DNA of 64,000 nucleotides from a virus. The DNA lies in IMG/VR virus record IMGVR_UViG_3300042345_000282, positions 36,328 to 100,327 of that record. One strand, given 5' to 3'. The position numbers and the translations under genes were made by a program. Below are positions 32,328-48,697 of the stretch, piece by piece. Numbering within the stretch: position 1 is the stretch's first letter; every line of letters begins with the position of its first letter. The notes beneath the pieces were generated by a model. The model saw only the letters and a program-made list of their open reading frames with translations, had not been told where the DNA came from and did no database searches.

Positions 32328-32360
32328 TTGTGAGTCCTTTTCTTTACTGTCTAAGATTCT

Positions 32361-32389: not shown

Positions 32390-32418
32390 GCCTTTTATGC
32401 CATTATTTTTAGGATATT

Positions 32419-32438
32419 TTGTTGTTTAAAAACAACAA
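32419..32438. repeat. TTGTTGTTTAAAAACAACAA palindrome, second copy
   Basis: Same palindrome and flanks (GCCATTATTTT...ATATTTTG...CTTAC) as at 14271-14290; again between a gene end and an AAGGCTTGAC promoter. Confidence 0.55.
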
Positions 32439-32439
32439 C

Positions 32440-32815: not shown

Positions 32816-32827
32816 TTTGTGTCTCCT

Positions 32828-33601
32828 TTATTTAAGTTCAATACTAGCAACTTTCAATCTAGCAAAAATGTCATCACCAAACTTCCATCCTTCGGGCATA
32901 CTTGTCTGCATGTCCAATTCATTATCAAGTTTAACAGCCTCTTCGTTAGTAATCAAGACAATAGCCAAATTGTTTTTAATCATTTGGGCAATCTCAGTAA
33001 CAGGACATTTTTCCATAGTCATCGTTACCGCTTGATTATAAATCATGATACAAGGAACGATATGCTCACGATAAGTATTTTCCTTAGTACGGTTTACACT
33101 CTCGCCGATAGTGATAAGATGGTCAATGCTATCACTCTCAAGTAATGACCTCGCATTCTCTAGACCAAATCCATCTTCGTTGTCAATCAAAAATCTAAAA
33201 CGTTTGGCAATCTTTTCAAAGATGTTACGCTCACTAACCTCACGTGGTATAGGCTTGATTGCCTGTCCACGAACCTTTCTTACGATTGTTTCAATAGATT
33301 CGATGATACTAACAAGTATCCAAAAATTTTCAAGGATATCACCGTCAAAATTGATAGTGATACATTTCTCATTATCCTTTCGTGCCTTTTCAGAAAATCC
33401 CTGCTCCAGCATACGCTTTCGCATTTCGGCAATATCTTCTGATCGTGCTAACCAACCAAAGGTATAATGCTTCTTCTTGATTTCACATTTGACACCGTTG
33501 TTGGTATAGAGTACGCAATTATTTTGCTCCTCGTATACACGTTCAGTGTAGCCACGCTCCTCACATGAGGACTTGAATATATTGAAACTAATAGCAGCCA
33601 T
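32828..33601 (-). CDS. Protein of unknown function
   Basis: 257 aa, soluble, Glu/Ile/Lys-rich, starting MAAISFNIFKSSCEERGYTE. Several segments of alternating charge (FEKIAKRFRFLIDNEDGFGL). I recognise no family or catalytic motif. Confidence 0.6.
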   Translation of the reverse strand: MAAISFNIFKSSCEERGYTERVYEEQNNCVLYTNNGVKCEIKKKHYTFGWLARSEDIAEMRKRMLEQGFSEKARKDNEKCITINFDGDILENFWILVSIIESIETIVRKVRGQAIKPIPREVSERNIFEKIAKRFRFLIDNEDGFGLENARSLLESDSIDHLITIGESVNRTKENTYREHIVPCIMIYNQAVTMTMEKCPVTEIAQMIKNNLAIVLITNEEAVKLDNELDMQTSMPEGWKFGDDIFARLKVASIELK

Positions 33602-33605
33602 TATA

Positions 33606-33875
33606 TTAGTTCATGAGGTAAGTGCTGATGATCCACTTAGCACGATTGATCGCCTGACGGCCGTCTTCGGCTCGCATACTATCAACTTCACCGTATTCGG
33701 TGTTGATCATTTCCTGCGCATCGCTGAGGATGCTCATTGCCATCATAGCAGGGCCACTGAAACGAAACGTGAGACTGTCCTCGACCGCTTCACGCATCTG
33801 GGTCTCAGTGCAACCAAACATGCGAACTTGGCGTTTTTCTTGCTCGGTCAAACCACTGTAAATTGCTGTTGTCAT
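33606..33875 (-). CDS. Small protein of unknown function
   Basis: 89 aa, MTTAIYSGLTEQEKRQVRMF; helical. More GC-rich than average, like other genes with AAGGCTTGAC promoters. CGGAGATAG site. Confidence 0.6.
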   Translation of the reverse strand: MTTAIYSGLTEQEKRQVRMFGCTETQMREAVEDSLTFRFSGPAMMAMSILSDAQEMINTEYGEVDSMRAEDGRQAINRAKWIISTYLMN

Positions 33876-33904
33876 CTCTATCTCCGTTCGTTCAGTATGT
33901 ATAT

Positions 33905-33933
33905 ATTATGAACCCAATTAGCCCAAATGTCAA
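33905..33933 (-). promoter_or_regulatory. Early-type sigma70 promoter
   Basis: AAGGC TTGACA, 17 bases, CATAAT. Confidence 0.7.
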
Positions 33934-33998
33934 GCCTTTTTTGTTGTTTTTTTGCTACAAAAAACCTATATAAATCAACGACTTACAAGAGCGGGATT

Positions 33999-35564
33999 TT
34001 ACTGTACGGTTTTCACACCCTTGTAAAACTTGATAGCACCTTTTAACGACTTGTTATTCAACACGTTGTCCGGATACACAATGATATCCATGATGCCGTC
34101 ACCATCAAAGTCTGCCATTTCGGACATATGCTTATCAACATCATGCAATACAAACTTAGACAGATCGCCGATATCTAACTTTTTGAAAGTAGAGTCTTTC
34201 TGGTTGATATAGATACGACTGATCTCATTAGTCTTTCCTGGACCCACACTCATGACAAGATCATCATAACCATCTTTGTTGACATCGATGCATTGCAGTC
34301 TGCCACCAGTGAGATTAGTTTCCCCGGGTATGTTTAGAGCAGTTCTAATAAGTTCCTTACCTTTGATCGTGTATGCAGTTAGTTCGACATCAAAATTAAG
34401 ATTTTCAAACTTTAATTCCGTACCGGAAGCATATAACGTTTTTAATGTGGGCATGTATGTGACACCTACAGAGAAGGGCTCACTATTACCCATTCTAACC
34501 GTGCAAAGATTTTCAACTCCGCCCATAGTACCGGCAAGTACATGCTTACCTTTATACTCATAGACATCAACTGGTTTTCTATCTCCGGCGTAATTGATTA
34601 TAGATTGACCAGACGCTATTAATTTCATCTCAGGGTTCACATGATTAGTAGGGAACCATGAACCATTCTCCATATAGTAACCTTCTACACCATAATGTCC
34701 TCGAAAGAATGTTTGCTGTACCATCCTGTTCGATGATTTGTTATCAGTAGAATAGAAATTAAAAGTCACAGGACTGATGCCGGGAAGTATACCATCGTGT
34801 ACAGTATGTAAACTCACTCCATTCCACATATATTTGTGATTCTGTCTATAGACTCCTAGATCGCTGGGGAAGCCGGCAGCGGTGACGAATTGTTTTCCAT
34901 AATAGTCAACACCGTGACCTATGCTACCATAGTACTTACCTTCACCAGTCCTGTGCATCTTATACTTTTTGTTAGGTTGACTTACGTAAGCCACTACATA
35001 ACCTGTGACTAACGAACCAGCATCGTTGCTCCTACCATCAGACTGATTAGTAGAGTAAAAGATATCTTTTAATCCGTCACCGTTGATATCAAGTATAGAA
35101 TAAATGAATCCAGAACACGATTGGCTATCTCTGGTTCCCTCGATATACTTTTCGCTAGCGTCAACAAACTTGCCTTCACTATTCAATTCATAGATAACTG
35201 TCAAACTTTTGCAGGGCTCTGCTACATAACTACGCCATAATAGATCAGAACCTTTGCCCTTGTGAAAGGTCATGAGAAATTCAAGTTTACCGTCATTGTT
35301 GAGATCGACTGCTATGCTACCTGCCACCTTAGCGGGATAATTTTTACCCGAAAGATCAAGCGGCGCGCTAGCGTGTGCAGGATCAAAAAACCAGTACGTC
35401 AATGTAGGATCGGGGAAAGCACCTGCTACTTCTTGAAAGTAGTCTTTGGATACTACTGCGGCCTGAGTGACCGGGGCATTATTAGTAGTCGGGGCAGGAT
35501 TACTTCCACCGCCACCGCATGCAGTAAGAATGATACTGCTAACAACATAAGCAACCTTGCGCAT
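33999..35564 (-). CDS. FG-GAP/VCBS repeat lipoprotein
   Basis: 521 aa. Signal with lipobox LTAC, then GGGGSNPAPTTNNAP linker. At least four calcium-loop repeats: DLNNDGKLEFLM, DINGDGLKDIFY, DVNKDGYDDLVM and DFDGDGIMDIIV, typical of integrin-type beta propellers. It would be an outer- or inner-membrane lipoprotein facing the periplasm or outside. Own promoter. Roles such as surface masking or superinfection exclusion are possible but not shown. Confidence 0.75.
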   Translation of the reverse strand: MRKVAYVVSSIILTACGGGGSNPAPTTNNAPVTQAAVVSKDYFQEVAGAFPDPTLTYWFFDPAHASAPLDLSGKNYPAKVAGSIAVDLNNDGKLEFLMTFHKGKGSDLLWRSYVAEPCKSLTVIYELNSEGKFVDASEKYIEGTRDSQSCSGFIYSILDINGDGLKDIFYSTNQSDGRSNDAGSLVTGYVVAYVSQPNKKYKMHRTGEGKYYGSIGHGVDYYGKQFVTAAGFPSDLGVYRQNHKYMWNGVSLHTVHDGILPGISPVTFNFYSTDNKSSNRMVQQTFFRGHYGVEGYYMENGSWFPTNHVNPEMKLIASGQSIINYAGDRKPVDVYEYKGKHVLAGTMGGVENLCTVRMGNSEPFSVGVTYMPTLKTLYASGTELKFENLNFDVELTAYTIKGKELIRTALNIPGETNLTGGRLQCIDVNKDGYDDLVMSVGPGKTNEISRIYINQKDSTFKKLDIGDLSKFVLHDVDKHMSEMADFDGDGIMDIIVYPDNVLNNKSLKGAIKFYKGVKTVQ

Positions 35565-35596
35565 AATCGATATCCATAGTTACAACAGATATGACT

Positions 35597-35625
35597 ATGT
35601 TAACAGATTACATGTAAAAGGTCAA
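35597..35625 (-). promoter_or_regulatory. Sigma70-like promoter for the lipoprotein
   Basis: TTGACC, 17 bases, TAACAT; the -35 box overlaps the stop of the gene upstream. Confidence 0.5.
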
Positions 35626-35792
35626 GACCCTCTGCCCGTTTTTCGGGTAACTGCAGGGCCGCCAAAACCCTTACTTACCTTACCCTTTTTTCCGTTATTA
35701 GGATTGAACTGTCCTTTATTATTCGCTTGTATCGCTTTCTTACGTGCTAGTAATTCTGCGATTGGGTTTTTTGTTTTATTATCTTCGCTCAT
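35622..35792 (-). CDS. 56-residue basic protein
   Basis: MSEDNKTKNPIAELLARKKA then IQANNKGQFNPNN and a Gly/Lys-rich tail (GKKGKVSKGFGGPAVTRK). ATGA overlap with the methyltransferase. Similar short proteins are common in phages; likely nucleic-acid binding. Confidence 0.6.
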   Translation of the reverse strand: MSEDNKTKNPIAELLARKKAIQANNKGQFNPNNGKKGKVSKGFGGPAVTRKTGRGS

Positions 35793-36586
35793 GTGAATAT
35801 AGGTCCTTCTGTTTCAGGTCTCAACGACCTGTTATTTTTAAAACTAAAGTTCTTGCAAAATACGCTGGTGCACCAAGCATTATAATTATTCCAACCTGGA
35901 CCCCAGAAATCTATTCGCTTATACCCTTTATCTATCAAGTACTGTTGCAAAGTGTTATACTGCCAGCGATCACTGTTGTCCAATATGATCAACGTATCGT
36001 CTCTTGCTCGTTCGACGGCTAACACACCGCTTAATGCTCTAGCCATACCGTCTAACACGATCACATCAAAATATCCTTGTGGATAATTATATAAAGTGCT
36101 GGCGTAGCCAGCGAATTCGTTGTTAATCAATCCATGCCTGACATCGTGATCCCTGTCATCACTACGTATCTGCGGAAAGTTTGTAATGAAGTTGTTTACG
36201 ACTTCCAATGCATCATCGTGTACTTTTGCATTTTGATCTACTACATGTATCACTGCATTAGGTGCCTTTTCTTTGACATGATCTACCCAGGTGATATCAT
36301 GCTCGACACTAACTGTTTCTCTCACGTAATTGTTAAAGAATAGTGTGCTGTATCCACAACCATATTCGAATACTTTACTTTCTTTTGACAATACATCTTT
36401 TAAGAATGCGATTGCTGGAAATGTCATCCACGGGGTCACACCTTCTTCATCGCAAGGATGATCATGGAACCATCCATGCTCTTGCAAATATAGGTATGCG
36501 TGTGTGCTTAAATGTGAACTAAGATCGTTGGTGAGACTTAAACGTTTTACACCTTCGTGTTCTACTAATACTATAGGTTTTTTCAT
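35789..36586 (-). CDS. SAM-dependent methyltransferase-like protein
   Basis: 265 aa. VFEYGCGYSTLFFNNYV is motif I (E/DxGxG), SVEHD motif II, and FDVIVLDGMARALS motif IV, of the class I fold. Related phage proteins are sometimes near FkbM or glycan methyltransferases. Substrate unknown. ATGA overlaps on both sides. Confidence 0.7.
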   Translation of the reverse strand: MKKPIVLVEHEGVKRLSLTNDLSSHLSTHAYLYLQEHGWFHDHPCDEEGVTPWMTFPAIAFLKDVLSKESKVFEYGCGYSTLFFNNYVRETVSVEHDITWVDHVKEKAPNAVIHVVDQNAKVHDDALEVVNNFITNFPQIRSDDRDHDVRHGLINNEFAGYASTLYNYPQGYFDVIVLDGMARALSGVLAVERARDDTLIILDNSDRWQYNTLQQYLIDKGYKRIDFWGPGWNNYNAWCTSVFCKNFSFKNNRSLRPETEGPIFT

Positions 36587-36987
36587 GTCTTTGCTGATTC
36601 AAGATATTCTAAGAAACTGCCATATAATGTGATCATCATGGCAATTTTACTATCATATATGCGTATATATGCTGTTTTAGCCTGCTGATTTTTTAATCCT
36701 ATATACCAAGGACATTTTATTTTTTTGCCTAGTTTCAGCGTGAACCTCTTTAGGTCTTCTTTTTTCAGACCTTTATGCTTGTCACCCACAAACAAAGGAA
36801 AATCATAATGCTCTATCTCAGCGAGTGAGAAGGCATCCATACCGTCTTCAGTAAGGCGCAGGCCAGAACCACTGCGTCCTGTAGCCCACCATTTAAATAA
36901 CAAATCGTTGATTGAGTTTTTAGGTTGAGATAAGTCTATCTCTAGTATTTCTATCAGTGCTTGTGTGATAAGTTCTTTATTCTTCAT
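36583..36987 (-). CDS. Conserved-type phage protein of unknown function
   Basis: 134 aa, MKNKELITQALIEILEIDLS; GDKHKGLKKEDLKRFTLKLG; CPWYIGLKNQ. This and the next four genes to the right form an ATGA-coupled block of conserved unknowns familiar from T4-like phages. Confidence 0.6.
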   Translation of the reverse strand: MKNKELITQALIEILEIDLSQPKNSINDLLFKWWATGRSGSGLRLTEDGMDAFSLAEIEHYDFPLFVGDKHKGLKKEDLKRFTLKLGKKIKCPWYIGLKNQQAKTAYIRIYDSKIAMMITLYGSFLEYLESAKT

Positions 36988-37273
36988 CTGGGTAAACTTG
37001 TCTACCCTGGTTCATGAACACCACTGTAAACTTATCAGTTTTGAATTGATTGTTTAACTTACGACACAAGTTTCTAGCATGTCCTGGATTACTGAAACTA
37101 GTCTTTTTATACTTAGGAGCCGCTTCGTTCGCTAGGTAATGCTGACTCTTGAGATTGATCGGTTGTCCCTCATAAAACACAGCCCAAATACCAGAAGCCT
37201 CTACTATCTGGTCGCACTTGTACGTTGTTTTGTCAACATGCTCAAGTATTATTTTTGGTTGTGTTCTGCTCAT
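36977..37273 (-). CDS. Conserved-type phage protein of unknown function
   Basis: 98 aa; SGIWAVFYEGQPINLKSQHY and NPGHARNLCRKLNNQFKTDK. No catalytic motif. Overlaps both neighbours. Confidence 0.6.
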   Translation of the reverse strand: MSRTQPKIILEHVDKTTYKCDQIVEASGIWAVFYEGQPINLKSQHYLANEAAPKYKKTSFSNPGHARNLCRKLNNQFKTDKFTVVFMNQGRQVYPDEE

Positions 37274-37473
37274 TTAAATTTTCCACCTGTAATCTCTACT
37301 TTGATAACTTCCTCAGTTTTTTTATCCTCATTATTAAGTTCATGTAGATCAGCAAGTAACTTCGCTATCTCATCCCTCAATACTCTAGCCTCTGACATGG
37401 GTAAAACAAGATCCTTAGACCTTTTGCTGTCCAAATGAGAGACTTTATCCATGAATCTCTTTATCTGAATCAT
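37270..37473 (-). CDS. Small coiled-coil protein of unknown function
   Basis: 67 aa; helical SEARVLRDEIAKLLADLHEL. ACATAAATA occurs just upstream within the end of the previous gene and may be a late promoter. Confidence 0.6.
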   Translation of the reverse strand: MIQIKRFMDKVSHLDSKRSKDLVLPMSEARVLRDEIAKLLADLHELNNEDKKTEEVIKVEITGGKFK

Positions 37474-37478
37474 CTTAA

Positions 37479-37928
37479 TTATTTATGTGTTTTGGCCTCA
37501 TCTTCTGATTTAAACGGACCCTCATAGGGGTATCGCTGTATGAAGATGTATTTGGGGCAAAAAACTGTCTGATTATGTCCATTTTGATCTATATTAAACC
37601 ATCCTGCTACATGATAACACTTGCTTTTTGTCGTTTTTGTAAAGATATGTAACTTACGCTTGACATCAAACATATTGTTATATGTCTTGTTAGTAGTAGG
37701 ATATTCAGGATAAGGCATCTCTACCTTAGTCCTATTACTCTTCATAGGTTGAAAACTAATCTTAGTCTTCTTTTGTATATCCTTAGTATTGTTAAATTGT
37801 AGTGTGCTACCATTGATCATGACTTCATAGCCCGCGCTATTGGCCTGCACATTACCTACTTTTTTCTCACCGTCAGTCACGACCCAATATTGGTCTTTGA
37901 TGATTGGTTTCGCTATTAGTTCTGTCAT
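37479..37928 (-). CDS. Conserved-type phage protein of unknown function
   Basis: 149 aa. DQYWVVTDGEKKVGNVQANS and CYHVAGWFNIDQNGHNQTVF then CPKYIFIQRYPYEGPFKSED. Familiar in cyanophages; function unknown. Confidence 0.6.
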   Translation of the reverse strand: MTELIAKPIIKDQYWVVTDGEKKVGNVQANSAGYEVMINGSTLQFNNTKDIQKKTKISFQPMKSNRTKVEMPYPEYPTTNKTYNNMFDVKRKLHIFTKTTKSKCYHVAGWFNIDQNGHNQTVFCPKYIFIQRYPYEGPFKSEDEAKTHK

Positions 37929-37937
37929 ATTTCCTCT

Positions 37938-38540
37938 TTACGTTATCTCTATGAAATTAAAAATCTGTACTATCCTAGCATCTTCATCTTGCTCTCCGAA
38001 CACCGGGCCTATGCCATGGAATTTGTTAGCAGGATATAGCAAGAATCTATTATAAACAATGTTTGATACAGTGTGTATAGTCCATTTATCTAATTGGTTA
38101 AATTCATTATTTTGAATAATATGCTTAAGATGCTCTTTGCTCAATGCTCTATCTGAGTTGGTTGACTTTTGGTTATAAAAGATAGTACCGGGGGTGTCTT
38201 CTCTGTTTTTAGAAAGATACAACACACCCGCATAATAATTGGCATCAACGGAATCCGCATGTAACAAGTTTGATGATACCGTACCTTTTTTACTAATCCT
38301 AAAAGAACCGTTATCCATCTGTCTCAACTGGCGCATATTCTTATTTAGAATCTTAGAAATTTTCACATCGATCCAAGTAGGGGAATACGTATCCTTGCTC
38401 ATTTTTCCTGGCCAAGGTGCATCACCAAACTTATAGCCTGATGATTTTTTATCTTCGTAATATTCGGAAGACAAAGCCATATCTCTGATACTATCAGGAT
38501 CATCATAGAAATCATCGATTATGATTAATCCTAAATTCAT
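37938..38540 (-). CDS. DUF6445 / 2OG-Fe(II) oxygenase-like protein
   Basis: 200 aa from ATG at 38540 (ATGA overlap). LLHADSVDANYYAGVLYLSK and FLLYPANKFHGIGPVFGEQD carry the HxD and distal His of a prolyl-hydroxylase-like fold, as in DUF6445 proteins. Modification target unknown. Confidence 0.65.
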   Translation of the reverse strand: MNLGLIIIDDFYDDPDSIRDMALSSEYYEDKKSSGYKFGDAPWPGKMSKDTYSPTWIDVKISKILNKNMRQLRQMDNGSFRISKKGTVSSNLLHADSVDANYYAGVLYLSKNREDTPGTIFYNQKSTNSDRALSKEHLKHIIQNNEFNQLDKWTIHTVSNIVYNRFLLYPANKFHGIGPVFGEQDEDARIVQIFNFIEIT

Positions 38541-38761
38541 TCTGATATGCTCTCCCAAAACAATTCGTTATCCTTGACATTTGCTATGGGTTTGAGCCAA
38601 CCTCTATCAATACAATCTAGTAAAATTGATTTATATTCCCTAGGACATTTATCACTAATTTCAAACCCTGCTCTAGGTGCCATAACTAATCCATCGATAA
38701 TATGAAACTTTGGATCACCCGATTTAAGAGTTCGAATAGATGTTTGAGTAACCTTAAACAT
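38537..38761 (-). CDS. Small protein of unknown function
   Basis: 74 aa from ATG at 38761, overlapping the flap endonuclease gene by eight bases. MFKVTQTSIRTLKSGDPKFH; APRAGFEISDKCPREYK. Not recognised. Confidence 0.55.
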   Translation of the reverse strand: MFKVTQTSIRTLKSGDPKFHIIDGLVMAPRAGFEISDKCPREYKSILLDCIDRGWLKPIANVKDNELFWESISE

Positions 38762-39764
38762 TTGCCAACTCACCTGTATAAGGATTGTTCAACCACTTTG
38801 CATAACTATCAGCCTGGTCGCTGATCTTTTGCAATTCATACTTGCCACAAAACTTCATGAAGTGAACACCAACTTGCGGTGTCGTCTTGAGGCGCACACC
38901 TGTAGTGATGCTAGCATCAACTATCTGCTTAATTTCATCAGGCTGCGCAGTCAGATCAATCAATAATCTATTACGTTCATAATCTTCACGTACACGATGT
39001 TCGACACCATCGGGGTCTACCCAACGCTGTAGCATCATGTTGTTCCAATTAAAGCCCTGCTTAGTGCGGTCAGCATATGCTTCGATGAGACCGACTTTGT
39101 TCTTGCTACCCTTAGTACGCACTCCAGGATAAGCACTGAACACATTATCACCCGCGTCACCGCGCATGATCTTCTCAAACAATACAAATTGTGGATCACC
39201 AAGCAACTTGGGTTCTTTAGTCTTTTTATCTTTGACTGGCTTACCCTTGTCATCAAAATAACCTTCAAGAGTAATTAGTTGGTTTGCGACACCGTTGTAC
39301 TGCTTGACGTTGGGTGCGATCAATTGAATATAGTCTGTGTCGCTACTGATGATCACATGTTCATCGTTGGGATGTAGATGTACGAATCGTGCGATGAGGT
39401 CGTCTGCCTCAGCACGTTCATGTCGCAACACACTTACGTTAGTCTTCTCACGCAAAAACGTAGTGAACATATCATACGTTTCCCAGAACATCTTATTTTC
39501 TTCTGCTTCTGCCTCAGTGAGGCTTTGCTCTGCAACTTTACGATGTGCCTTATAAGGTGCATACACATCCTTGCGCCAACTACGACCCTCAAGACAGAAT
39601 ACGACATGATCGATTCCATATTTGCGAACAGCCTGATTGACACTTGATAATGTCAAGTGCAGAGCCATGCCGATCTTTTCCCAAGTATCGCTATTGCGAC
39701 TGGCAACATGTCGGGCACGGAAAAATGTATTAGCAGTATCAATCAGAGCATATTTCACAATCAC
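38754..39764 (-). CDS. 5'-3' exonuclease / RNase H (flap endonuclease family)
   Basis: 336 aa. PIN/FEN core: LIDTANTFFRARH with metal Asp, GRSWRKDVYAPYKAHR, HERAEADDLIARF, ISSDTDYIQL and RGDAGDNVFSAYPG (helix-hairpin with K-metal site). Closest to T4 RNase H and T5 FEN. Removes primers and flaps in lagging-strand synthesis. Consensus promoter upstream. Confidence 0.88.
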   Translation of the reverse strand: MIVKYALIDTANTFFRARHVASRNSDTWEKIGMALHLTLSSVNQAVRKYGIDHVVFCLEGRSWRKDVYAPYKAHRKVAEQSLTEAEAEENKMFWETYDMFTTFLREKTNVSVLRHERAEADDLIARFVHLHPNDEHVIISSDTDYIQLIAPNVKQYNGVANQLITLEGYFDDKGKPVKDKKTKEPKLLGDPQFVLFEKIMRGDAGDNVFSAYPGVRTKGSKNKVGLIEAYADRTKQGFNWNNMMLQRWVDPDGVEHRVREDYERNRLLIDLTAQPDEIKQIVDASITTGVRLKTTPQVGVHFMKFCGKYELQKISDQADSYAKWLNNPYTGELANV

Positions 39765-39791
39765 ACCTATTTAGTAGAATAATATACGTAT

Positions 39792-39820
39792 ATTATACTA
39801 GGTGTTTGCGAACATGTCAA
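39792..39820 (-). promoter_or_regulatory. Sigma70-like promoter for the flap endonuclease
   Basis: TTGACA, 17 bases, TATAAT: consensus at both boxes. Confidence 0.75.
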
Positions 39821-39838
39821 CTAACTTAGGTACAGCCT

Positions 39839-40882
39839 TTACCCAAAGTTAAACAACATGATACCTGTGGGTTCGACTTTGTTTTTGGACAGTACCATTA
39901 TGCTTTCATCTGTATTCAGATTTGATTTGGCACTAGGTCGTACCTTATTCTTAAGGTCAGTGGTCTGTATATGATGATAGCCCAAACTTTTTGCCAAGGA
40001 TAAAGTATCCTCGTACAATTTATAATTTGAAAAATTCTTTATGTTAACTAGCAATTTACCTTCAGCAATTAGATATTTGTTGATGTTCACCAATGTGGGC
40101 TTAAGATAATTGTCTAGCCATTGTTGATAAGTAGTTCCGGGTTTATACGATTGATTACCTACCCTATAATCTTCAAGATTAAAATATGGAGGACTACTAA
40201 AAGCCAATCCAATCGTGTTCTCCCATTCAGGCACATACACCTCACTACCCTGGCATCGTATGTCGTATTTGCTATCTGTTAGGTTGGCTGTATCATAATC
40301 CTTTGCCATTTCAAATAATCTGTCAACCAACAAGTTATTAGGATCTGTCCCATAATACTCTACTTTATTTTTGATTGCGCTTAGTAATCTTACACCCCAA
40401 CCACAACTAAAATCATAATACTTGTTATTCACATTGTAATATTTCAATATGTGGTCGGCAGTCTGCATTGGAAAGTTGCTCGGTTTCATAGCAACTCCCC
40501 CACCAGAAATTCTTAACGCCGTCTCTAAATTTTGTATATCAGTATTTGTTTTTGGATACACTTTTTCACTGGCTAATGTGCGGCTATAAAAATATTTTAT
40601 CAGATCATTTGACTCAAATACCTCTTCTATGCTCCAGCGAGGGGTTTCAAGTTTTACTTTTGCCATCAAATCTTTATAGTAATAGTTGGCTATATCACCT
40701 ATCGCAGTACCACCGCGCTTTACGCTTTTCAAATTTTCTTTTACAAGGTTGTAGTCGGGTTTAGTATAATACTGTTGTTTTAATTCAATACACTTTTCAA
40801 CAGGCAGGTCATAATAATGGTCGGTGTACAAAACCTTACCAAGATGTTCAATGGTATATTTTTTCTTAGTGGTTTTAGCCAC
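39839..40882 (-). CDS. DNA amino-methyltransferase-like protein
   Basis: 347 aa. YYDFSCGWGVRLLSAIK is a SAM-binding motif I variant and AFSSPPYFNLEDY is the catalytic SPPY motif of N4-cytosine or N6-adenine DNA methylases. The order (motif I before SPPY) fits a gamma or zeta-like class. A PD-(D/E)XK-like protein lies two genes upstream, so a modification system is possible. Target sequence unknown. Confidence 0.7.
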   Translation of the reverse strand: MAKTTKKKYTIEHLGKVLYTDHYYDLPVEKCIELKQQYYTKPDYNLVKENLKSVKRGGTAIGDIANYYYKDLMAKVKLETPRWSIEEVFESNDLIKYFYSRTLASEKVYPKTNTDIQNLETALRISGGGVAMKPSNFPMQTADHILKYYNVNNKYYDFSCGWGVRLLSAIKNKVEYYGTDPNNLLVDRLFEMAKDYDTANLTDSKYDIRCQGSEVYVPEWENTIGLAFSSPPYFNLEDYRVGNQSYKPGTTYQQWLDNYLKPTLVNINKYLIAEGKLLVNIKNFSNYKLYEDTLSLAKSLGYHHIQTTDLKNKVRPSAKSNLNTDESIMVLSKNKVEPTGIMLFNFG

Positions 40883-40897
40883 GATACTTTTATGTTA

Positions 40898-41341
40898 TCA
40901 ACTGATTTCGGTTCGTCCGTTACCCAAATCTCGTTGTCTGATTACTCTGAGATTATCTGCGTTCCTGCGCTTTTCTGGGTCTGCTATCTCTTGCTCATAC
41001 ATCTCAAGTGCGATGTTACGGCAAACTGCTTGAAACCAGCGATCTACGATCTCGTTGTCGGTATCAGTCTCGCTTTTCTTATATCCTGACTTAATTAGAT
41101 TAAGAAGGAACTTATCGTTCCAATCTAATTCAAAAGCGCCGTTGTTGATGTTGTTGGGGTCAATGTCTACTCTATTGATAGCGATATAAGGATCACCATC
41201 TTTAGTGGCCTGCTCTTTGGGACTGAGTTTCTTTTCAGTTTTTTCTTTCTTAGGTTTGGAGGAATCCTCGCTCGGTGGATTCGGCCTCGGCTCTGGTTTT
41301 TTCGCTCCTAACCCAAAAATACTTTTAATCTTATTGAACAT
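40898..41341 (-). CDS. Conserved-type phage protein with Pro/Lys-rich linker
   Basis: 147 aa from ATG at 41341. MFNKIKSIFGLGAKKPEPRP, then acidic-basic linker, then YIAINRVDIDPNNINNGAFE and LDWNDKFLLNLIKSGY. This protein type is shared with cyanophages; function unknown. Sits between the methylase and the PD-(D/E)XK-like gene. Confidence 0.65.
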   Translation of the reverse strand: MFNKIKSIFGLGAKKPEPRPNPPSEDSSKPKKEKTEKKLSPKEQATKDGDPYIAINRVDIDPNNINNGAFELDWNDKFLLNLIKSGYKKSETDTDNEIVDRWFQAVCRNIALEMYEQEIADPEKRRNADNLRVIRQRDLGNGRTEIS

Positions 41342-41900
41342 TCTTAGCCCTGGTAATAGCGCCACGCACCGCAGTTTGTAACGCATTGTTTAAATCTACA
41401 TTGTACTTATTGTTGGCAACTACGTAACCAGAAATTTCTTTAATGTCATTGAGATTAATTTTCAAGTCGAATCCATCTCCCGTTTTATGCAGATTACGAA
41501 TGACCGTTTCTTTGTCAACAAGAAAACACCCATCGTTTCGTAATACTATTGTAATGTCGCAAATTAATTCAGGTTCTAACATGTCCTTATTATTCGTGCC
41601 ATTACTATTTGTAAATTTGACAATGAATGTTTTTCTGCTTTTACCATTCTTTTTATACATGCTTTGACTTAACTGGCTTTTTAACTCAATAGTAGTATTA
41701 TGTTTTGGCCAATCAAAGTCTTTGTGATCCTCTCTCACACAAATTAATGAGGAATCTTGCATAGCAATTAATTCTTCGCAGACGAATCCCTTTAAAAATC
41801 TGAGTTGTCTGTCATTCAACTCTTCTAGGCTATTACCAAAATTAATGATAAATTGCCAGTCGTATTTTTTAAGATCATTGATTATTTGTTGCATATTCAT
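41331..41900 (-). CDS. PD-(D/E)XK nuclease-like protein
   Basis: 189 aa; start ATG at 41900 or 41894. HKDFDWPKHNTTIELKSQLS gives D...E-x-K spacing of the PD-(D/E)XK fold, with a preceding helix (RQLRFLKGFVCEELIAM). C-terminal half is mixed alpha/beta (DGFDLKINLNDIKEISGYVV). It might be a restriction-type or repair nuclease. Overlaps uvsE by 26 bases. Tentative. Confidence 0.45.
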   Translation of the reverse strand: MNMQQIINDLKKYDWQFIINFGNSLEELNDRQLRFLKGFVCEELIAMQDSSLICVREDHKDFDWPKHNTTIELKSQLSQSMYKKNGKSRKTFIVKFTNSNGTNNKDMLEPELICDITIVLRNDGCFLVDKETVIRNLHKTGDGFDLKINLNDIKEISGYVVANNKYNVDLNNALQTAVRGAITRAKNVQ

Positions 41901-42906
41901 ATAGTTTAAAACTTGCAAGATTTTTAGCCTTGCTTTCGCACATTATATCAGCCCATGAACGATGTGTCAATGCCCAATTATTTACTGCTTCATTCCAGTA
42001 GTAATCACTATGAGCGCGTAGTTTCTGTTTGTTATGGCCGCTTTCTAGTAGTGTAGTCAAGCACGGACGGCTGACGGTGCAGGCACTTGGTAGATGCTCT
42101 TCTCTACTGACACTATAGTGTATGACAGGGCGCACGCCACGCCAACTATCAATAACCATGCCAATACGGGGATCAGTTTTTTCAATGTATTCTCCTGTTT
42201 TAATCCAATTGTGATGAATGTCGAGTACGATAGGAACAAGGTCAGCCAACTCTAGGCACGAATCGAGACCCCACGACATTTCTTCGTTTTCGATTGTGAG
42301 TCCATTTCTTGCTTCGGGGCTGAGTCTGTTGTAGGCCCGCCGGATGCCTTCGGGACCTTGGCGACCACTGATGTGGACGTTGATTTTAATGTCCTGAAAT
42401 GATTTACCATACCCCATGAAACGGGCCATATCTGCATGATATTCGAACTCCTCGATACTCTTATTTACTACCTCAGGACGATCACTTGCAAGAACAACAA
42501 ACTGATCAGGGTGAAAACTTAGTCGTACATCATTGGCACGTGCAGTCTCACCTATAGGAGCCATCCAACGTTCTAGTGTATCCTGTACATCTCTACGTAA
42601 CCAAAAGTCTTTGTACTCATCCATTGTATAGAAACTAAACATATCGCTTGTGATACGCAACATACGTAGTTCATGCGGTAGTTCTGCTACCTTTTTGACA
42701 AGCGCATGGGTATTGAGGATGTTGCGTTTGGCTACATCAATGATCTTGTCTTCAACTACTTGCCGCGATTTTTGACGTTTTGCCCACGCAAAAGTCGTGC
42801 CACCTGTGTTGAGGCCCTCGGTGCTAGCGATCTCGCCTTTTTTATTGATCTCTGCCCATTTGCAGGCAAAGCCAATGCGTTTGATATTAATATTGAAGGT
42901 AGTCAT
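41875..42906 (-). CDS. uvsE: UV DNA damage endonuclease
   Basis: 343 aa from ATG at 42906. UvsE TIM-barrel marks: IGFACKWAEINKKGE, HPDQFVVLAS, INVHISGRQGPEGI, LTIENEEMSW and VLDIHHNWI, with metal His/Glu residues. Cuts 5' of UV lesions; useful to a surface-water phage. Its sigma70-like promoter ends six bases before the ATG, so it may be leaderless. Confidence 0.88.
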   Translation of the reverse strand: MTTFNINIKRIGFACKWAEINKKGEIASTEGLNTGGTTFAWAKRQKSRQVVEDKIIDVAKRNILNTHALVKKVAELPHELRMLRITSDMFSFYTMDEYKDFWLRRDVQDTLERWMAPIGETARANDVRLSFHPDQFVVLASDRPEVVNKSIEEFEYHADMARFMGYGKSFQDIKINVHISGRQGPEGIRRAYNRLSPEARNGLTIENEEMSWGLDSCLELADLVPIVLDIHHNWIKTGEYIEKTDPRIGMVIDSWRGVRPVIHYSVSREEHLPSACTVSRPCLTTLLESGHNKQKLRAHSDYYWNEAVNNWALTHRSWADIMCESKAKNLASFKLYEYATNNQ

Positions 42907-42912
42907 GATATA

Positions 42913-42941
42913 AATATAACACAATAGATTATGAATGTCAA
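42913..42941 (-). promoter_or_regulatory. Sigma70-like promoter for uvsE
   Basis: TTGACA, 17 bases, TATATT; the ATG is at the predicted +1. Confidence 0.65.
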
Positions 42942-42950
42942 CACCAACTT

Positions 42951-43655
42951 ATGAAGTATGAGCCAAATCAAAAATACACTTATGTGACTAATGGGCAACG
43001 CAAGATTTCTATAGACTTCATGGGATTCTTGAATGGGGGCGGTACGTGGGGAAGTGTAAGGTTCATAAATACTCTCCAAAAATATTATCCTAACAAGTCT
43101 TTCCAAAAATGTTTAGAATGGTGCAGCGGCCCGGGCTTCATAGGCTTTGAACTATTATCTAATAATATTTGCTCAGAGTTAAGTTTTATGGACATATATC
43201 AGCCTGCTTTGGACAACATAGCAGAGACTATAAAAAATAATGGACTCACTGACAAGATAACATTGCATAACGTAGGAAAACTGTCAGAATTATCAGGAGA
43301 AAAATATGACCTGATATTGGGTAATCCTCCATGGCACAAAAAAGCCCCTGCTAGATTCGCTATCAAAGACGGTGAATATAATGGGGATTTCATGCGTAGA
43401 AATGTAGACGAAGGACTAGTGATACACAAAGAGTTTTTCAATCACGTGGGCGACCATTTAAATGAAAAGGGAGTGGTCATCATTAGCGCATTAGACAATC
43501 GATATGACGATCCTAGACATATAGGGGTCAGCATACATGACTTCTATTCTATGGCCAAGAATACTCCGCTAAAATTGATCGATATTTATTATCCTGATAG
43601 AGACTTGTCTAAGGGCTATTCTACCACATATTACGCTGTATTTGAAAAAAGGTAA
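42951..43655 (+). CDS. PrmC/HemK-like SAM methyltransferase
   Basis: 234 aa. LEWCSGPGFIGFELL is motif I, LSFMDIYQPAL motif II, and LILGNPPWHKK is the NPPW catalytic motif for amide or amino nitrogen, as in PrmC-type or DNA amino-methylases. Divergent from uvsE across a short gap. Substrate unknown. Confidence 0.7.
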   Translation: MKYEPNQKYTYVTNGQRKISIDFMGFLNGGGTWGSVRFINTLQKYYPNKSFQKCLEWCSGPGFIGFELLSNNICSELSFMDIYQPALDNIAETIKNNGLTDKITLHNVGKLSELSGEKYDLILGNPPWHKKAPARFAIKDGEYNGDFMRRNVDEGLVIHKEFFNHVGDHLNEKGVVIISALDNRYDDPRHIGVSIHDFYSMAKNTPLKLIDIYYPDRDLSKGYSTTYYAVFEKR

Positions 43656-43659
43656 TTTC

Positions 43660-43667
43660 GATAAATA
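43660..43667 (+). promoter_or_regulatory. T4-type late promoter, plus strand
   Basis: GATAAATA; leader of about 17 bases containing TTAGGA before the GP88-like ATG. Confidence 0.5.
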
Positions 43668-43689
43668 CTACATATTTAGGACTATAAAC

Positions 43690-44844
43690 ATGAATTTCAG
43701 AAAACTTATCAAACTAGTGACCGAAGGGGTCAGCCCTTTCAGTAAAAATCTCAAAGTCATGAGCCTTGACCAATTCGTGGATAGTGAAGGCAAGGACGAA
43801 AAAGATGTTGAAGAAGCCAAATTATCGGGAGTCGCTAGTCGCAAATTTGATAAAGATGAACTTACAGCATATCTAGACAGAATTATCGGCAAAAATAAAG
43901 AGAAACAGGACAAATATCAGCGCCCATATATACACAGCGGCAATATACCTATCGTCAATGACGAAGGTAAGAAATATGACCTAGATGCCCTTCGCAAGAC
44001 TTTCTCCGAGCGTCCCGCAAAGATTCTCAAGCAAAACGAAAAGATGCAACACAGCGACGGCACATCAAGCATTTTCTTCAATGTTGGTCTCCCTGCACTA
44101 AAGGGACTTGCCGTTGATGAAGACACCGGTGAATTTATAGTGATTGATACTTGTCCTGGCGCAGGCGCATGTAAGACATTCTGCTATGCTATGAAGGGTG
44201 GTTATGTTCAATGGAAGGCTAGCAGTTTGGGTTCAACTAAGATGCTTAACTTCTTGTACAATGATCCAGACGGTTTCATGGCTAAGTTAAGTGAAGAGAT
44301 CGACCAAGCAGAGAAAAAGTACGGCAAGAAGGGTACCAAAGTTGTTATTCGTTGGCATGATGCCGGCGACTTCTTTAGCCCACAATACCTAGAAATGGCA
44401 TACGATGTTGCTAAGAAACATCCTGATGTTGACTTCTATGCATATACTAAGATGGCTAGTGTAGCACAGGCGGCACGTCCTGATAACTTTAAGATGAACT
44501 TCAGCCAAGGTGCGGCTACTGGTCAAGAAAAGAAAATCGATTTCGTTAAGACTAAGAACAGTCGTGTAGTTCCTAAAGAACTATTTGCCGACGCATTAGA
44601 GAAGGATGAATCAGGTAAATGGCAATATAAGAACCCAGAAGCAGAAAAGGCTGTCAAGGATCGTATCGCTATCAAGTATAGTCTCAAGCCAGAGTCGGTC
44701 ATCACTTACGATGAGATGATGAAGAAGCCGGCTGATAAAGATCCAGAAGCCAAAGGTAAATGGAATGTTATCGTCAAGCCGGGTGATGGTGACGATGCTG
44801 CCAATCGTAATGACGTATTGAGCAGTTTACTTCTTATTCACTAA
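43690..44844 (+). CDS. GP88-family-like protein with capsid-targeting-like N-terminus
   Basis: 384 aa from ATG at 43690. Cys motif CPGAGACKTFCYAMKGGYV, then VIRWHDAGDFFSPQYLEMAY and VDFYAYTKMASVAQ, as in the GP88 domain of mycobacteriophage-type proteins of unknown function. N-terminus MNFRKLIKLVTEG resembles a capsid-targeting peptide (L-V-T-E). Late promoter upstream. Ends 11 bases inside the convergent epimerase gene. Confidence 0.65.
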   Translation: MNFRKLIKLVTEGVSPFSKNLKVMSLDQFVDSEGKDEKDVEEAKLSGVASRKFDKDELTAYLDRIIGKNKEKQDKYQRPYIHSGNIPIVNDEGKKYDLDALRKTFSERPAKILKQNEKMQHSDGTSSIFFNVGLPALKGLAVDEDTGEFIVIDTCPGAGACKTFCYAMKGGYVQWKASSLGSTKMLNFLYNDPDGFMAKLSEEIDQAEKKYGKKGTKVVIRWHDAGDFFSPQYLEMAYDVAKKHPDVDFYAYTKMASVAQAARPDNFKMNFSQGAATGQEKKIDFVKTKNSRVVPKELFADALEKDESGKWQYKNPEAEKAVKDRIAIKYSLKPESVITYDEMMKKPADKDPEAKGKWNVIVKPGDGDDAANRNDVLSSLLLIH

Positions 44845-45673
44845 CCTTCAATAAGTCTTTCAATTCAAATAAGTGCTTCATGTAACGGCTAGGATTATCT
44901 AGCACACTTACTGCGGCATCACCTTTCCTTCGAGGTCCGTACTTAACATCAAACTTGACGTTATTGACTTCCTTGTACATCTCTACCATAGCGTTCACTG
45001 TAGTACCTACTCCGTGCCCTAAATTCTCAAGGCTATTTGCAGGTTCTTCGATAGCAGTCTTCAATGCTTCGCAAATCTCTAACACATGAACATAATCACG
45101 AACACATGTGCCGTCTGGGGTATCATAGTCGTTACCGAATATAGTAAACTCACCCTTAGTTTCTGCCCACATTAGGTTCAGCATCAACCCATCAGGGTTA
45201 GTGGGCATCAATCCATAACTAGCACCGATCACATTATAGAATCTAAACATGCTAAAATCTTTAGGATGATGATTAGTGCAGTATTCCCGCACACAATCTT
45301 CCGCCGCCCGCTTACTGATACCGTATGCACTCTCACATAATGCGGCTGCACCGGTACTAGCAAAGATGAAATTATTAGTAGGTACTTTATTCAGTACGTT
45401 CATAGTACCGTTCATGTTAGTGATATAATACATGATGGGTATGCGTTCACTCTCACTAACGTTGACCATAGCAGCCAGATGTATCACAGCATGATATGGT
45501 TCTGTTTGATCGGGAATAGTAAACAATCTGTTGATGTCAACATTATAAAATTTGCTTATCGGGACGACAGGATCTCTGATATCAAGACCATGTATCTCGT
45601 ATTGTCCTTCTAACATCTTGCATAGATGACTACCGATATAGCCTGAGCAGCCTGTTATTAATATTTTTTTCAT
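44834..45673 (-). CDS. NAD-dependent sugar epimerase (GalE-like)
   Basis: 279 aa. ITGCSGYIGSHLCKML is the Rossmann GxxGxxG; HLAAMVNVSES, the catalytic SAYGISKRAAED (YxxxK) and FRFYNVIGASYG fit short extended-SDR UDP-glucose 4-epimerases. It is shorter than GalE (about 330 aa). ATGA overlap with the glycosyltransferase gene. Confidence 0.85.
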   Translation of the reverse strand: MKKILITGCSGYIGSHLCKMLEGQYEIHGLDIRDPVVPISKFYNVDINRLFTIPDQTEPYHAVIHLAAMVNVSESERIPIMYYITNMNGTMNVLNKVPTNNFIFASTGAAALCESAYGISKRAAEDCVREYCTNHHPKDFSMFRFYNVIGASYGLMPTNPDGLMLNLMWAETKGEFTIFGNDYDTPDGTCVRDYVHVLEICEALKTAIEEPANSLENLGHGVGTTVNAMVEMYKEVNNVKFDVKYGPRRKGDAAVSVLDNPSRYMKHLFELKDLLKVSE

Positions 45674-47004
45674 ATTCCCTCAAATAAGTTCGTTGATTCT
45701 AATTTTTCTACTGGTTGAAAAGTAGGATCTTTAGTCAAGTATGTATTGTCATCTGTGTAGATAACACTGAATTTATGCTTGTTGGTTAAGATACTACGCA
45801 CATCATCGATGCAAATTATTTTTCTACCTAAACTTTGTATGAACTCACTATGTTGCACTGTATTAAAATTACAAATCTGTGCAGTGTTGTTATTGCTTTG
45901 TTTGCCTTTGAAATCATTGAAGCATTCATTCCACTTATGAAACACATCTTTTTCTCTATTACGATATGCTTCTAATATATCATTAGAATACCAAGTCTTA
46001 GCATCAGGAACATTATTATATAAATCTAACACAGTCTTAGCCATATTCTTTTTGTTGACTGTAAAAAAATGACGGCTATCAAAGTTTTGAGTCCAGCGTT
46101 GATTCTCTAATACTACTGTAGGCATCTGTATCATCTGTTCATAAAAAGCCATGCCATAACTCTCTACAGTGCTAGGGTTGAATGCTACCCTTGCGCCAGT
46201 GATGAAGTCTACCTTCTCTTGTCCTACAATGCTAGCACGAACATCATAGGTAGCACCGATCTTAGCCAGTCTATCTTCAAACTTCTTAACACCATTAGGA
46301 CTAGTCATTACTTTAGCGGGTAATTTAGTTTGTTCTATCAAATCGATAAACAGTTCAGGATTCTTACCTTCTTCCCAACGACCAATAAACAATACACCTT
46401 CACGTGGTTTGTGATGTTCTTCTAACAATCCTTGCTCCGTGACGGGGATAGGTAAATGCCAAGCATTGTCAAATTGATGCTTATTGAACATGCTCTGTGT
46501 ACCTACATAGATACCATCAGTCTGTAACTGTTGACGCATCACCACATTTGTATTGTACAAGAATGGATTCTTTGTGTCTTTGAACATTTGACTTTCAAGG
46601 TGTGTATACGCAATAATTTGTATAACATCCTCGAGGCCCATAGTACTAGCGACTTGTACAGTCTCGTATGTATTACAGATAAATGCATCATATAGATTGT
46701 GTTCCAATGCTTCTACAATAGCAGTACGGAAGTTGGCCATGCGCTCATAGCAAAACGTATCACCATACATGAATATATTACTATGAAGAGTGTATGGCAG
46801 TGGTTCTAGTGGGGCAATGATGTTCGCTTTCAATGACTCGACAAACTCATTATCTTTAGGTTCTTTATCTGTAATGATATCGACTTTGATATTATGCTCG
46901 TCCATCAATTCACAAAAACTCTTTGTAAATTGACCTATACCACCATGAGGTATCAATGTTTGATAACTCACTAAGAAGCCGATTCGTTTATCGTAGGTTC
47001 TCAT
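45670..47004 (-). CDS. GT-B glycosyltransferase
   Basis: 444 aa. N-terminal SYQTLIPHGGIGQFTKSFCE; middle GVLFIGRWEEGKNPELFIDL; C-terminal NPSTVESYGMAFYEQM is the GT4 E-x7-E motif. A C-terminal extension of about 90 residues follows. With the epimerase it would build or attach a sugar to phage or host molecule. Confidence 0.8.
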   Translation of the reverse strand: MRTYDKRIGFLVSYQTLIPHGGIGQFTKSFCELMDEHNIKVDIITDKEPKDNEFVESLKANIIAPLEPLPYTLHSNIFMYGDTFCYERMANFRTAIVEALEHNLYDAFICNTYETVQVASTMGLEDVIQIIAYTHLESQMFKDTKNPFLYNTNVVMRQQLQTDGIYVGTQSMFNKHQFDNAWHLPIPVTEQGLLEEHHKPREGVLFIGRWEEGKNPELFIDLIEQTKLPAKVMTSPNGVKKFEDRLAKIGATYDVRASIVGQEKVDFITGARVAFNPSTVESYGMAFYEQMIQMPTVVLENQRWTQNFDSRHFFTVNKKNMAKTVLDLYNNVPDAKTWYSNDILEAYRNREKDVFHKWNECFNDFKGKQSNNNTAQICNFNTVQHSEFIQSLGRKIICIDDVRSILTNKHKFSVIYTDDNTYLTKDPTFQPVEKLESTNLFEGI

Positions 47005-47387
47005 TCTTCCACTTTAGTAATTTCTAACTCACAATCGATGATCATCTCGCATTCATCTTGTACCCAACCGTGATCGCATTCGAGGTCAAGCCAACTATTG
47101 CCCTCTTCAAAAAATTCTTCTAGCCACTCTTGTGTTTCTTCATCACATTCATCCATGTCATGCTCTTCCCAACAGCCGTCAGTAGTTTCTACTAGTTCAG
47201 ATTCATAACCACAATCATAGATATTCACACCGGCTTCGATATCAGGAGGATTATCATCCTCAGTCTCTACGGTGAACTCACCCCAACGCCATCCAGTCTC
47301 AATCATAATACGATTGTCACCTTTATAAAGGTAATTACGTTCAATGATTGACTTCTTCCATGCGGGTTTTACACTCCAAGTTGCCAT
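47001..47387 (-). CDS. Acidic, Cys-rich protein of unknown function
   Basis: 128 aa; MATWSVKPAWKKSIIERNYL at the start, then acidic stretches with several Cys (DCGYESELVETTDGCWEEHD; LDLECDHGWVQDECEMIIDC). ATGA overlap. Not recognised. Confidence 0.55.
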   Translation of the reverse strand: MATWSVKPAWKKSIIERNYLYKGDNRIMIETGWRWGEFTVETEDDNPPDIEAGVNIYDCGYESELVETTDGCWEEHDMDECDEETQEWLEEFFEEGNSWLDLECDHGWVQDECEMIIDCELEITKVEE

Positions 47388-47629
47388 TATACGTTTCCTT
47401 TCAATTTAGCAATAAGATATTCATCTTTATGATACCAGCGATATTCAAACACAGGTTCGCCTGGACCTGTCCACATGGCTACTTTTCTATATGCGAACTG
47501 TAGCCATAACCTTTTATCTGATAGCCAGCAACGTTTAGGTAACCAAGCGAATCGCAAGGTAGTACCTATACTATGGTGATCAAAATGATCCCAATCATCT
47601 ACTCTATCTCTACTGTTATAGAATGGCAT
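47387..47629 (-). CDS. Small Trp-rich protein of unknown function
   Basis: 80 aa from ATG at 47629 (TAATG overlap). MPFYNSRDRVDDWDHFDHHS; LPKRCWLSDKRLWLQFAYRK. Familiar in large phages; function unknown. Confidence 0.6.
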   Translation of the reverse strand: MPFYNSRDRVDDWDHFDHHSIGTTLRFAWLPKRCWLSDKRLWLQFAYRKVAMWTGPGEPVFEYRWYHKDEYLIAKLKGNV

Positions 47630-47838
47630 TACCAACTCTCTACGTCAGTAATGTCTAACTTTACCATCTCTTTAGGATCAAACTCAATTGTTACTGACGG
47701 TCCAATACCGCTAGGTGATGATTGCTTCCAAACAATTTGATTAACTGCATCATACATATCGAACACTTCTCTAAGTTTTTCAAACTGATTGCGAGTGATC
47801 ACAAATTGTTGTTCTTTTGATATAACACCTTCTGTCAT
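47629..47838 (-). CDS. Small protein, paralogue of 26983-27183
   Basis: 69 aa, MTEGVISKEQQFVITRNQFE, TIEFDPKEMVKLDITDVESW. Shares length and end pattern with the protein at 26983-27183. Function unknown. Confidence 0.55.
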   Translation of the reverse strand: MTEGVISKEQQFVITRNQFEKLREVFDMYDAVNQIVWKQSSPSGIGPSVTIEFDPKEMVKLDITDVESW

Positions 47839-47839
47839 G

Positions 47840-48697
47840 TTATGTTCCCCATTCGTTCTTAAACAATGGTACTTGCAGTCTATCGCTGTACCTCAAACCA
47901 TTCTTCATAGCAAAGTTTGCTACTTGTCTATTATTAAGACTGTACACACTTTCTACACCGCCTACGGGCATGACATACACATTACCTGTAAAACCTTCAC
48001 TGCGATAAAGTTCTGTGACTTCTAATACTTCGTCCATATCTTCTTGACTTGCGATAACAAACTTAAGATATACATGACCTGATTCTTGATATTGTAAAAC
48101 AACATCAGGTCTGATCGCACGTTCACGCTTTTCACCACTAACACTGAGTTTTGCGCTTACGCTAAACGTGATACTATCATAACTGCGACTGCTGAACGGA
48201 TCACCCTCAGCCCAATCATATAAAAAGTCTACAAGTTCAGGCTTTAGTTTCTGACTACCGTTAGTCTCAAACGTGATCTCTTTAAGATTTTTCATGAAGG
48301 GATGACTGAGAAGTTTAGGATACATCTTCTGCCATCCTAACAGTGGCTCACCGCCTGTGATGACTAAGTGTTCGTCTCGCCACTCTTTGAAGGGGAGGAT
48401 ATCTTTGATTGAATCAGCGATGCCATCAACTGAGACACGCGGACTAAGATGCTTGAACCTAGGATCCCAACTAGCATAACTGTCACATCCGGTACTAACC
48501 AGTGGTAAATCTCTATAAGATTTATATAACTTTGCATCGACAGCATGACGTTCATTAGTTTTTTCTCCTCTGGGCATACCGAAACCATCGCAAGTGAAGT
48601 TACAGCCGAACGTTCTTAGAAAGACTGAAGGCACGCCCATGTAGCGACCTTCGCCTTGAATACTGTAGAATAGTTCACTTATCTTGATTGAGTTCAT
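47840..48697 (-). CDS. queE: 7-carboxy-7-deazaguanine synthase (QueE), phage type
   Basis: 285 aa. FYSIQGEGRYMGVPSVFLRT, then CNFTCDGFGMPRGEK and an inserted segment ending GCDSYASWDPRF; HLVITGGEPLLGWQ; ITFETNGSQKL. The Cys spacing (CxxxC then a distant Cys) is a phage variant of the QueE cluster site. A radical SAM enzyme that converts CPH4 to CDG. Works with FolE and QueD in this window. Confidence 0.88.
   Translation of the reverse strand: MNSIKISELFYSIQGEGRYMGVPSVFLRTFGCNFTCDGFGMPRGEKTNERHAVDAKLYKSYRDLPLVSTGCDSYASWDPRFKHLSPRVSVDGIADSIKDILPFKEWRDEHLVITGGEPLLGWQKMYPKLLSHPFMKNLKEITFETNGSQKLKPELVDFLYDWAEGDPFSSRSYDSITFSVSAKLSVSGEKRERAIRPDVVLQYQESGHVYLKFVIASQEDMDEVLEVTELYRSEGFTGNVYVMPVGGVESVYSLNNRQVANFAMKNGLRYSDRLQVPLFKNEWGT

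Follow-up and report, generated by a model that had tools for sequence, protein, structure and literature searches.

Type II restriction-modification systems are recognized by adjacent nuclease and methylase genes and by the nuclease being kept together with its cognate methylase. Two such nucleases of the PD-(D/E)XK type, NaeI and the enzyme of the solved structure 3ndh (which we take to be ThaI), are similar in predicted fold and in conserved E...D...ExK residues to the phage protein described here, but the identity in the fold alignments is only 9–15%. Unlike type II enzymes, the protein is encoded by a phage gene and has no fixed methylase in its lineage. Further matches of its fold, DpnI, NhoI and Eco15I, are methylation-dependent enzymes that act on methylated targets. 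With freestanding phage homing endonucleases the protein shares a sporadic presence at a fixed spot, yet its fold lies nearer to restriction enzymes and its family often has a methylase neighbour. Orphan methylases are found in Vibrio phage 2.058.O and Mammaliicoccus phage PMS2, where the 3.5 kb around them contain no annotated nuclease. When restriction sites are missing from phage DNA, the usual explanation is past exposure to host defence, and our literature search, made mostly outside subscription journals, found no report of a phage that tolerates its restriction enzyme by having lost the site.

Here we describe a restriction-like nuclease family, unnamed in the curated libraries searched, in a phage cargo system, together with an idea of self-protection that is unproven but testable. 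The DNA analysed (the window) is a stretch of 64,000 nt, positions 36328–100327 of a 100,327-base IMG/VR record (G000). The original prediction was that an SPPY-motif methylase and a D...ExK protein (ExK) encoded close to each other form a modification-restriction pair.

Gene order and predicted fold of ExK

The genes on the minus strand follow the order UvdE, ExK, a conserved gene of the phage group (the intervening gene), the SPPY gene and a 5′–3′ exonuclease family gene. The UvdE UV-damage endonuclease gene (41875..42909; PF03851, E 2.7e-36) makes the left border of the ExK slot and overlaps by 26 nt with the ExK open reading frame (41331..41900; ATG at 41900, end at 41331), which encodes a 189-aa product. 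ExK overlaps by 11 nt with the downstream intervening gene (40898..41341, read from 41341 to 40898), whose product is weakly similar to virion structural proteins (phrog_13349, E 1e-9) and which relatives retain whether or not its two neighbours are present. The SPPY gene (39839..40882) starts with GTG at 40882, 15 nt past the intervening gene, and ends at 39839; the exonuclease gene (38754..39764; PF02739, E 2.6e-19) closes the cargo slot on the right. The presence of a methylase-like and a D...ExK gene with one conserved gene between them, as originally noted, is real, with exact coordinates. It is plausible that ExK, the intervening gene and SPPY form one operon. Full 12/12 matches to the sigma-70-like consensus TTGACA-17-TATAAT were found on the same strand before the exonuclease gene (39792..39820) and within the end of UvdE (41942..41970). 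As the latter sits just upstream of ExK, ending 41 nt before its start and with TG preceding the second hexamer, ExK possibly has its own promoter. Divergent to UvdE lies a gene for a HemK-like methyltransferase containing NPPW (42951–43655, plus strand), found also in near-identical window-type contigs and not at the same place in the L010 and L037 types.

The ExK family was built by iterated searches of viral contigs. In an alignment of 15 sequences, i.e., the window's ExK and 14 homologues 33–70% identical to it, 16 columns are invariant, including E42, D61, E72 and K74; the D...ExK pattern, unchanged in 15/15 sequences, is thus not due to chance. The predicted catalytic motif E72-L73-K74 is encoded at 41679..41687 (minus strand, as are the following codons), with E and K invariant; D61 (41718..41720) is, by analogy with the superfamily, a putative metal ligand, and E42 (41775..41777) would be the helix glutamate of the fold, in predicted helix 34–46. 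With the 15-sequence alignment AlphaFold2 gave a model with pLDDT 91.9 and pTM 0.87, while a model from 3 sequences only was unusable (pLDDT 42.8). In a Foldseek search of the PDB with the better model the rows were individually weak (best E 1.8e-3), and restriction enzymes made up 12 of the first 13. VIA-align placed restriction enzymes in its top eight rows (Z 8.1–10.4): 3ndh with Z 10.4 over 163 residues, NaeI with Z 9.8–9.9 over 136–137 residues, DpnI with Z 9.2, Eco15I with Z 8.7 and NhoI with Z 8.1. An unrelated protein scored Z 6.8 against ExK, and the tool warns that Z below 8 may mean little.

These models indicate that ExK very probably belongs to the PD-(D/E)XK nucleases of the restriction-enzyme type, which agrees with the fold proposed originally, and it would be expected to cut DNA. 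Searches of Pfam, NCBIfam and PADLOC with the window's ExK protein (the only family member used for the latter two) were negative, Pfam searches with the relatives from L010, L052 and L059 gave sub-threshold matches only, and neither ExK nor the family profiles matched any PDB sequence credibly. No convincing relative was found in cultured phages, plasmids or prokaryote genomes; two scans of genome contigs used two short peptide patterns each, so that distant relatives may have been missed. A PHROG match to a "thioredoxin domain" protein was rejected as too weak (E 0.0089; 2/15 members). Among viral proteins, E3SI79 of Synechococcus phage S-SM1 is one of those that match ExK best in fold.

Independent movement of the neighbouring SPPY gene

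The SPPY translation contains DFSCGWG followed by SSPPYF, presumably the SAM motif and the (D/N/S)PP(Y/F/W) motif, respectively, of DNA N4/N6 methyltransferases; as both were read in the translation, the gene qualifies as a methylase of this class by its motifs. The protein has no Pfam family, and a match to PF01555 (N6_N4_Mtase) is absent from it and from the whole of G000. PADLOC gave weak matches to MTase_II (E 4.3e-5) and mad2. Identity to the methylases of phages 2.058.O and PMS2 is 28–35%; unlike these, SPPY is repeat-bracketed cargo of a variable slot.

We examined how ExK and SPPY are distributed in 22 phage records, chosen since earlier searches had shown one or the other in them. ExK was found in 18, a close SPPY in 6 and both in 2 (G000 and G005); G016, with ExK and a distant SPPY, makes 3/22 records with both. 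A close SPPY was absent from 16/18 ExK records and ExK from 4/6 records with a close SPPY, and in the 150-kb G001 three SPPY-type matches were found but ExK was not. As the records are fragments, single absences weigh little. The loci show the same separation: in L011–L019 (SPPY loci) UvdE is followed directly by the intervening gene and ExK is absent, while in L030–L037 ExK is present and the intervening gene runs directly into the exonuclease gene, with no SPPY. The two occur together, two genes apart, in window-type contigs, L009 and L010, and this closeness is what speaks for the pair. A direct comparison of L010 (with SPPY) and L033/L034 (without) is stronger evidence than the record counts: identity is 97.6–98.3% before the insert and 96.6–97.7% after it. 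Hence the nuclease and its supposed cognate methylase are not kept together as in type II systems; an obligate ExK–SPPY pair is ruled out by their independent assortment, and the original pairing of the two, already largely refuted, is highly improbable. A role of SPPY in protecting the phage from ExK is not supported, as the two mostly occur apart in the searched records, including stretches about 98% identical, and the SPPY relatives of the two cultured phages likewise stand without an annotated nuclease nearby. What holds of the prediction, besides the fold, is a tie of the ExK family to DNA methylases, seen in other phages.

SPPY is shown to be a recently moved, independent passenger beside ExK. 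Between the window and L010, identity at four-fold sites is 98.3% in SPPY and 38.7–58.6% in UvdE, ExK, the intervening gene and the exonuclease gene. SPPY is bracketed by a direct repeat (family D3, 77% identity in the window, minus strand) that duplicates the 3′ end of the intervening gene: the left copy (40898..40928) is this end itself, and the right one (39817..39847) covers the SPPY stop codon as well as the −35 box of the gene that follows, running into the 12/12 promoter match that precedes the exonuclease gene. The copies in L019 are, by eye, 31 identical bases. The alignments of L010 with L033 on either side of the insert overlap by 31 bases, and the SPPY-less loci L030, L031 and L037 have a single copy. 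The ExK proteins of L010 (with SPPY) and L037 (without) are 99.5% identical, although the UvdE genes differ (84% nucleotide identity). A repeat common to all slot cargo was rejected: on the exonuclease side of 53 insert-bearing loci only SPPY-type inserts matched (23–26 of 30 positions in four loci with SPPY adjoining the exonuclease gene), the remaining 49/53 giving 12–16, equal to shuffles. An extra open reading frame follows SPPY in L019 (7044–7691), L223 and L239, and a shorter form in L011 and L233; in L019 the second repeat copy takes in its first codons, and a third, short copy is found at its end.

Methylase partners of the ExK family in other phages

In other phages the ExK family is accompanied by a different methylase. 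PF01555 methylases were present in 7/22 of the chosen records, all 7 with ExK. The partner in L068 (PF01555) matches CcrM best in the PDB (E 1.7e-19), followed by DpnA (about 1e-10); it is similar to CcrM/DpnA-type methylases but phage-borne and located beside ExK. The best 80 of 202 confirmed methylase loci were scanned, 43/80 being a close clade. At the level of matches to an iterated profile, 29/43 of these close-clade loci have an ExK-family gene, and tblastn gave no ExK in the 37 distant ones. Counted by lineage among the same best 80 of 202 loci, an ExK-family gene lies near the methylase in 16/24: in 13 within −31 to +48 bp of it, in two at a gap of about 1.15 kb and in one downstream. 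The ExK family and the CcrM-like methylase of other phages are thus adjacent nuclease and methylase genes, the architecture of a type II restriction-modification pair, and they may well act as one. Such frequent pairing would also argue against a requirement for methylated targets of the kind known for DpnI. A CcrM-like methylase was not found in the window's 100-kb record or in 26 other records (a set with no positive control among them), and at E 1e-30 the cultured-phage collection contains no close relative of it. By analogy with CcrM we considered GANTC as the ExK site and rejected it, as it is undepleted (0.66–1.11).

The same loci bear on two other roles for ExK. A freestanding homing endonuclease with a long target would spread its own gene by cutting ExK-less alleles. 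This fits the exact presence or absence of ExK between UvdE and the intervening gene, where both occupied and empty alleles were found, the neighbouring slot with many alternative cargos, several of them nuclease-like by eye, and the homing endonuclease I-Ssp6803I among the fold matches (Z 6.3). Yet type II and methylation-dependent enzymes match ExK better (Z 8–10), and a homing enzyme needs no methylase such as the one ExK abuts in 13 lineages; we regard this role as unlikely. A repair nuclease working with UvdE would account for the overlap of the two genes here and for UvdE adjoining ExK in the distinct phage L053. However, ExK was present in only 5 of the best 80 of 533 exonuclease-neighbour loci, many of which have UvdE, and in L068, L072 and L074 ExK is located beside a methylase, UvdE not being seen in the vicinity; a repair role is highly improbable. 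In L053, a QueD-like gene (265–741; PF01242, E 3.5e-15) lies a few genes upstream of the UvdE–ExK–methylase row, and deazaguanine chemistry is possible for it.

AGCT depletion and exchangeable cargo

The whole window (1..64000) is free of AGCT, with 0 observed vs. 175 expected from a Markov model. Synonymous-codon shuffling of 16 genes left a mean of 63 AGCT (lowest 45 in 200 runs) vs. 0 observed, and two other tetramers in the window gave 311/351 expected for GATC and 188/190 for ACGT. In the whole of G000 AGCT is the lowest of 256 tetramers (5/284 expected), all five occurrences being outside the window. Relatives with ExK had observed/expected counts of 2/32, 2/74, 3/71, 2/45, 1/37, 3/122, 0/19 and 2/15. 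Among records without ExK, counts were 181/565 in G001, 46/202 in G003 and 28/91 in G004, and G002 is AGCT-poor (4/90). Cyanophages taken as controls had ratios of 0.27 (S-SM1) and 0.39 (S-SM2) in 50 kb each; therefore moderate AGCT depletion is unremarkable and near-absence is what is special. ACGCGT and AGCGCT are absent from both G000 and G001.

We then compared the phage group as 49 dereplicated clusters, 9 with ExK (6 window-type and 3 divergent) and 40 without. AGCT ratios were 0.02–0.16 (average 0.05) in the six window-type clusters vs. a mean of 0.33 in the 40 ExK-negative ones. With the three divergent clusters set aside, AGCT had by far the lowest p among 16 palindromes (p 0.0005; next TGCA, 0.03), uncorrected for kinship and for the 16 tests. 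The AGCT p values of a second run (0.0007), of relatives at least 85% identical in the exonuclease gene (5 vs. 12 clusters; 0.0049) and of the set with the divergent clusters counted (0.025) were likewise uncorrected for both. Only 6/9 ExK clusters are AGCT-poor, since the divergent ones (G019–G021, ExK 33–34% identical) have ordinary AGCT, 0.74–0.95. The nearest tree neighbours of L295, L247 and L254, are AGCT-poor without ExK, so the L295 lineage is not independent support. Both observations weaken the link between ExK and AGCT.

A real possibility is therefore that host restriction explains the missing AGCT, i.e., that the hosts cut this site and ExK has another specificity. This rival is strong because site avoidance is an established anti-restriction strategy, stronger in non-temperate phages (PMC6286503). 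It agrees with the 11/40 ExK-negative clusters that are equally depleted (0.02–0.13), many of them fragments. AGATCT is nearly absent group-wide (G000, G010, grpB, G001 and L083 types), with or without ExK, so host-driven avoidance is probably at work in the lineage. Cyanophages too are fully without other palindromes, with GTAC 0/132 in S-SM1 (L217, first 50 kb) and CTAG 0/70 in S-SM2 (L218, 50 kb); in the same part of S-SM1, CCGG is 0/37.

Against host restriction as the explanation stand the depletion of all six window-type ExK clusters and the fact that AGCT poverty tracks the clade of ExK-associated methylases: 98/587 expected in L128–L165, loci of this clade from diverse phages, vs. 759/861 in L167–L203, loci with unrelated methylases. 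Across phages, 15 records with the ExK-associated methylase had ratios of 0.02–0.46, two AGCT-poor ones carrying a T4-type capsid gene. Speaking against a link of ExK to AGCT, ordinary AGCT was seen with ExK and methylase together in G018 (30/35, 0.85) and L150 (16/17), and methylase-clade loci without ExK are AGCT-poor as well. Records with ExK and a CcrM-like methylase tolerated more AGCT than those with ExK alone (Mann-Whitney p 0.023, hand-entered values, with L070 and the near-duplicates G012 and G014 left out; p 0.042 once the weak ExK records G025, G027, G028 and G031 were added).

Taken together, we give a probability of just under one half to the reading that ExK is a restriction-type nuclease carried as exchangeable cargo and cutting AGCT, that the phage purged AGCT, and that SPPY is independent. 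In other phages the ExK family and the CcrM-like methylase make a two-gene module, probably of joint specificity; in the window phage's record, where this methylase was not found, the nearby SPPY rides on its own. The site of ExK, to which the depletion is an indirect pointer, would most likely be AGCT or a sequence containing it, and a phage that had removed AGCT from its own genome would need no methylase, while host or rival DNA would be left open to attack. Of the two, absence of AGCT is a better candidate than SPPY for protection from ExK, if any protection exists. More tentatively, ExK could be a weapon without an antidote gene, to which the AGCT-emptied genome is immune, with relatives swapping nucleases at fixed slots, each of which leaves a matching gap in genome vocabulary. 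If part of the site loss were self-protection, the vocabulary of a genome would predict the cutting sites of uncharacterised phage enzymes, and a methylase-free weapon against host or rival DNA would be revealed.

The slot between the intervening gene and the exonuclease gene is a hotspot. By eye, its cargo in relatives includes HNH-like and GIY-YIG-like genes, a ParB-like gene accompanied by a small nuclease-like gene, a helicase whose end is HNH-like, a 416-aa SPPY gene paired with a nuclease-like gene, and a 459-aa gene alongside ExK. No family was found for the slot proteins searched (the extra L019 reading frame and the 459-aa protein of L059). A second nuclease-like gene, with an IEMKAS/IEQKAS motif, directly precedes a 416–424-aa SPPY methylase in L058 (2621–4482) and L250 (126–1999). 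Both phages with this 190–197-aa nuclease are ACGT-poor (4/36 and 1/12 expected), and ACGT is not depleted in 20 kb of G001, which has only the neighbouring methylase (61/72). This hints in the same direction as ExK and AGCT, yet six other loci of the group (L222, L226, L231, L232, L238 and L260) are also poor in ACGT although no nuclease of this kind was seen in them. Other slot contents recognized by eye are a recurrent 394–421-aa (D/N)GQHT protein with a 139–166-aa GIY-YIG-like protein (L258, L249, L276, L284 and L297) and a protein of about 600 aa that combines a helicase-like region with an end resembling HNH (L260, L265 and L296). The larger records of L265 and L296 are TCGA-poor, as is G056, which has no insert at this place.
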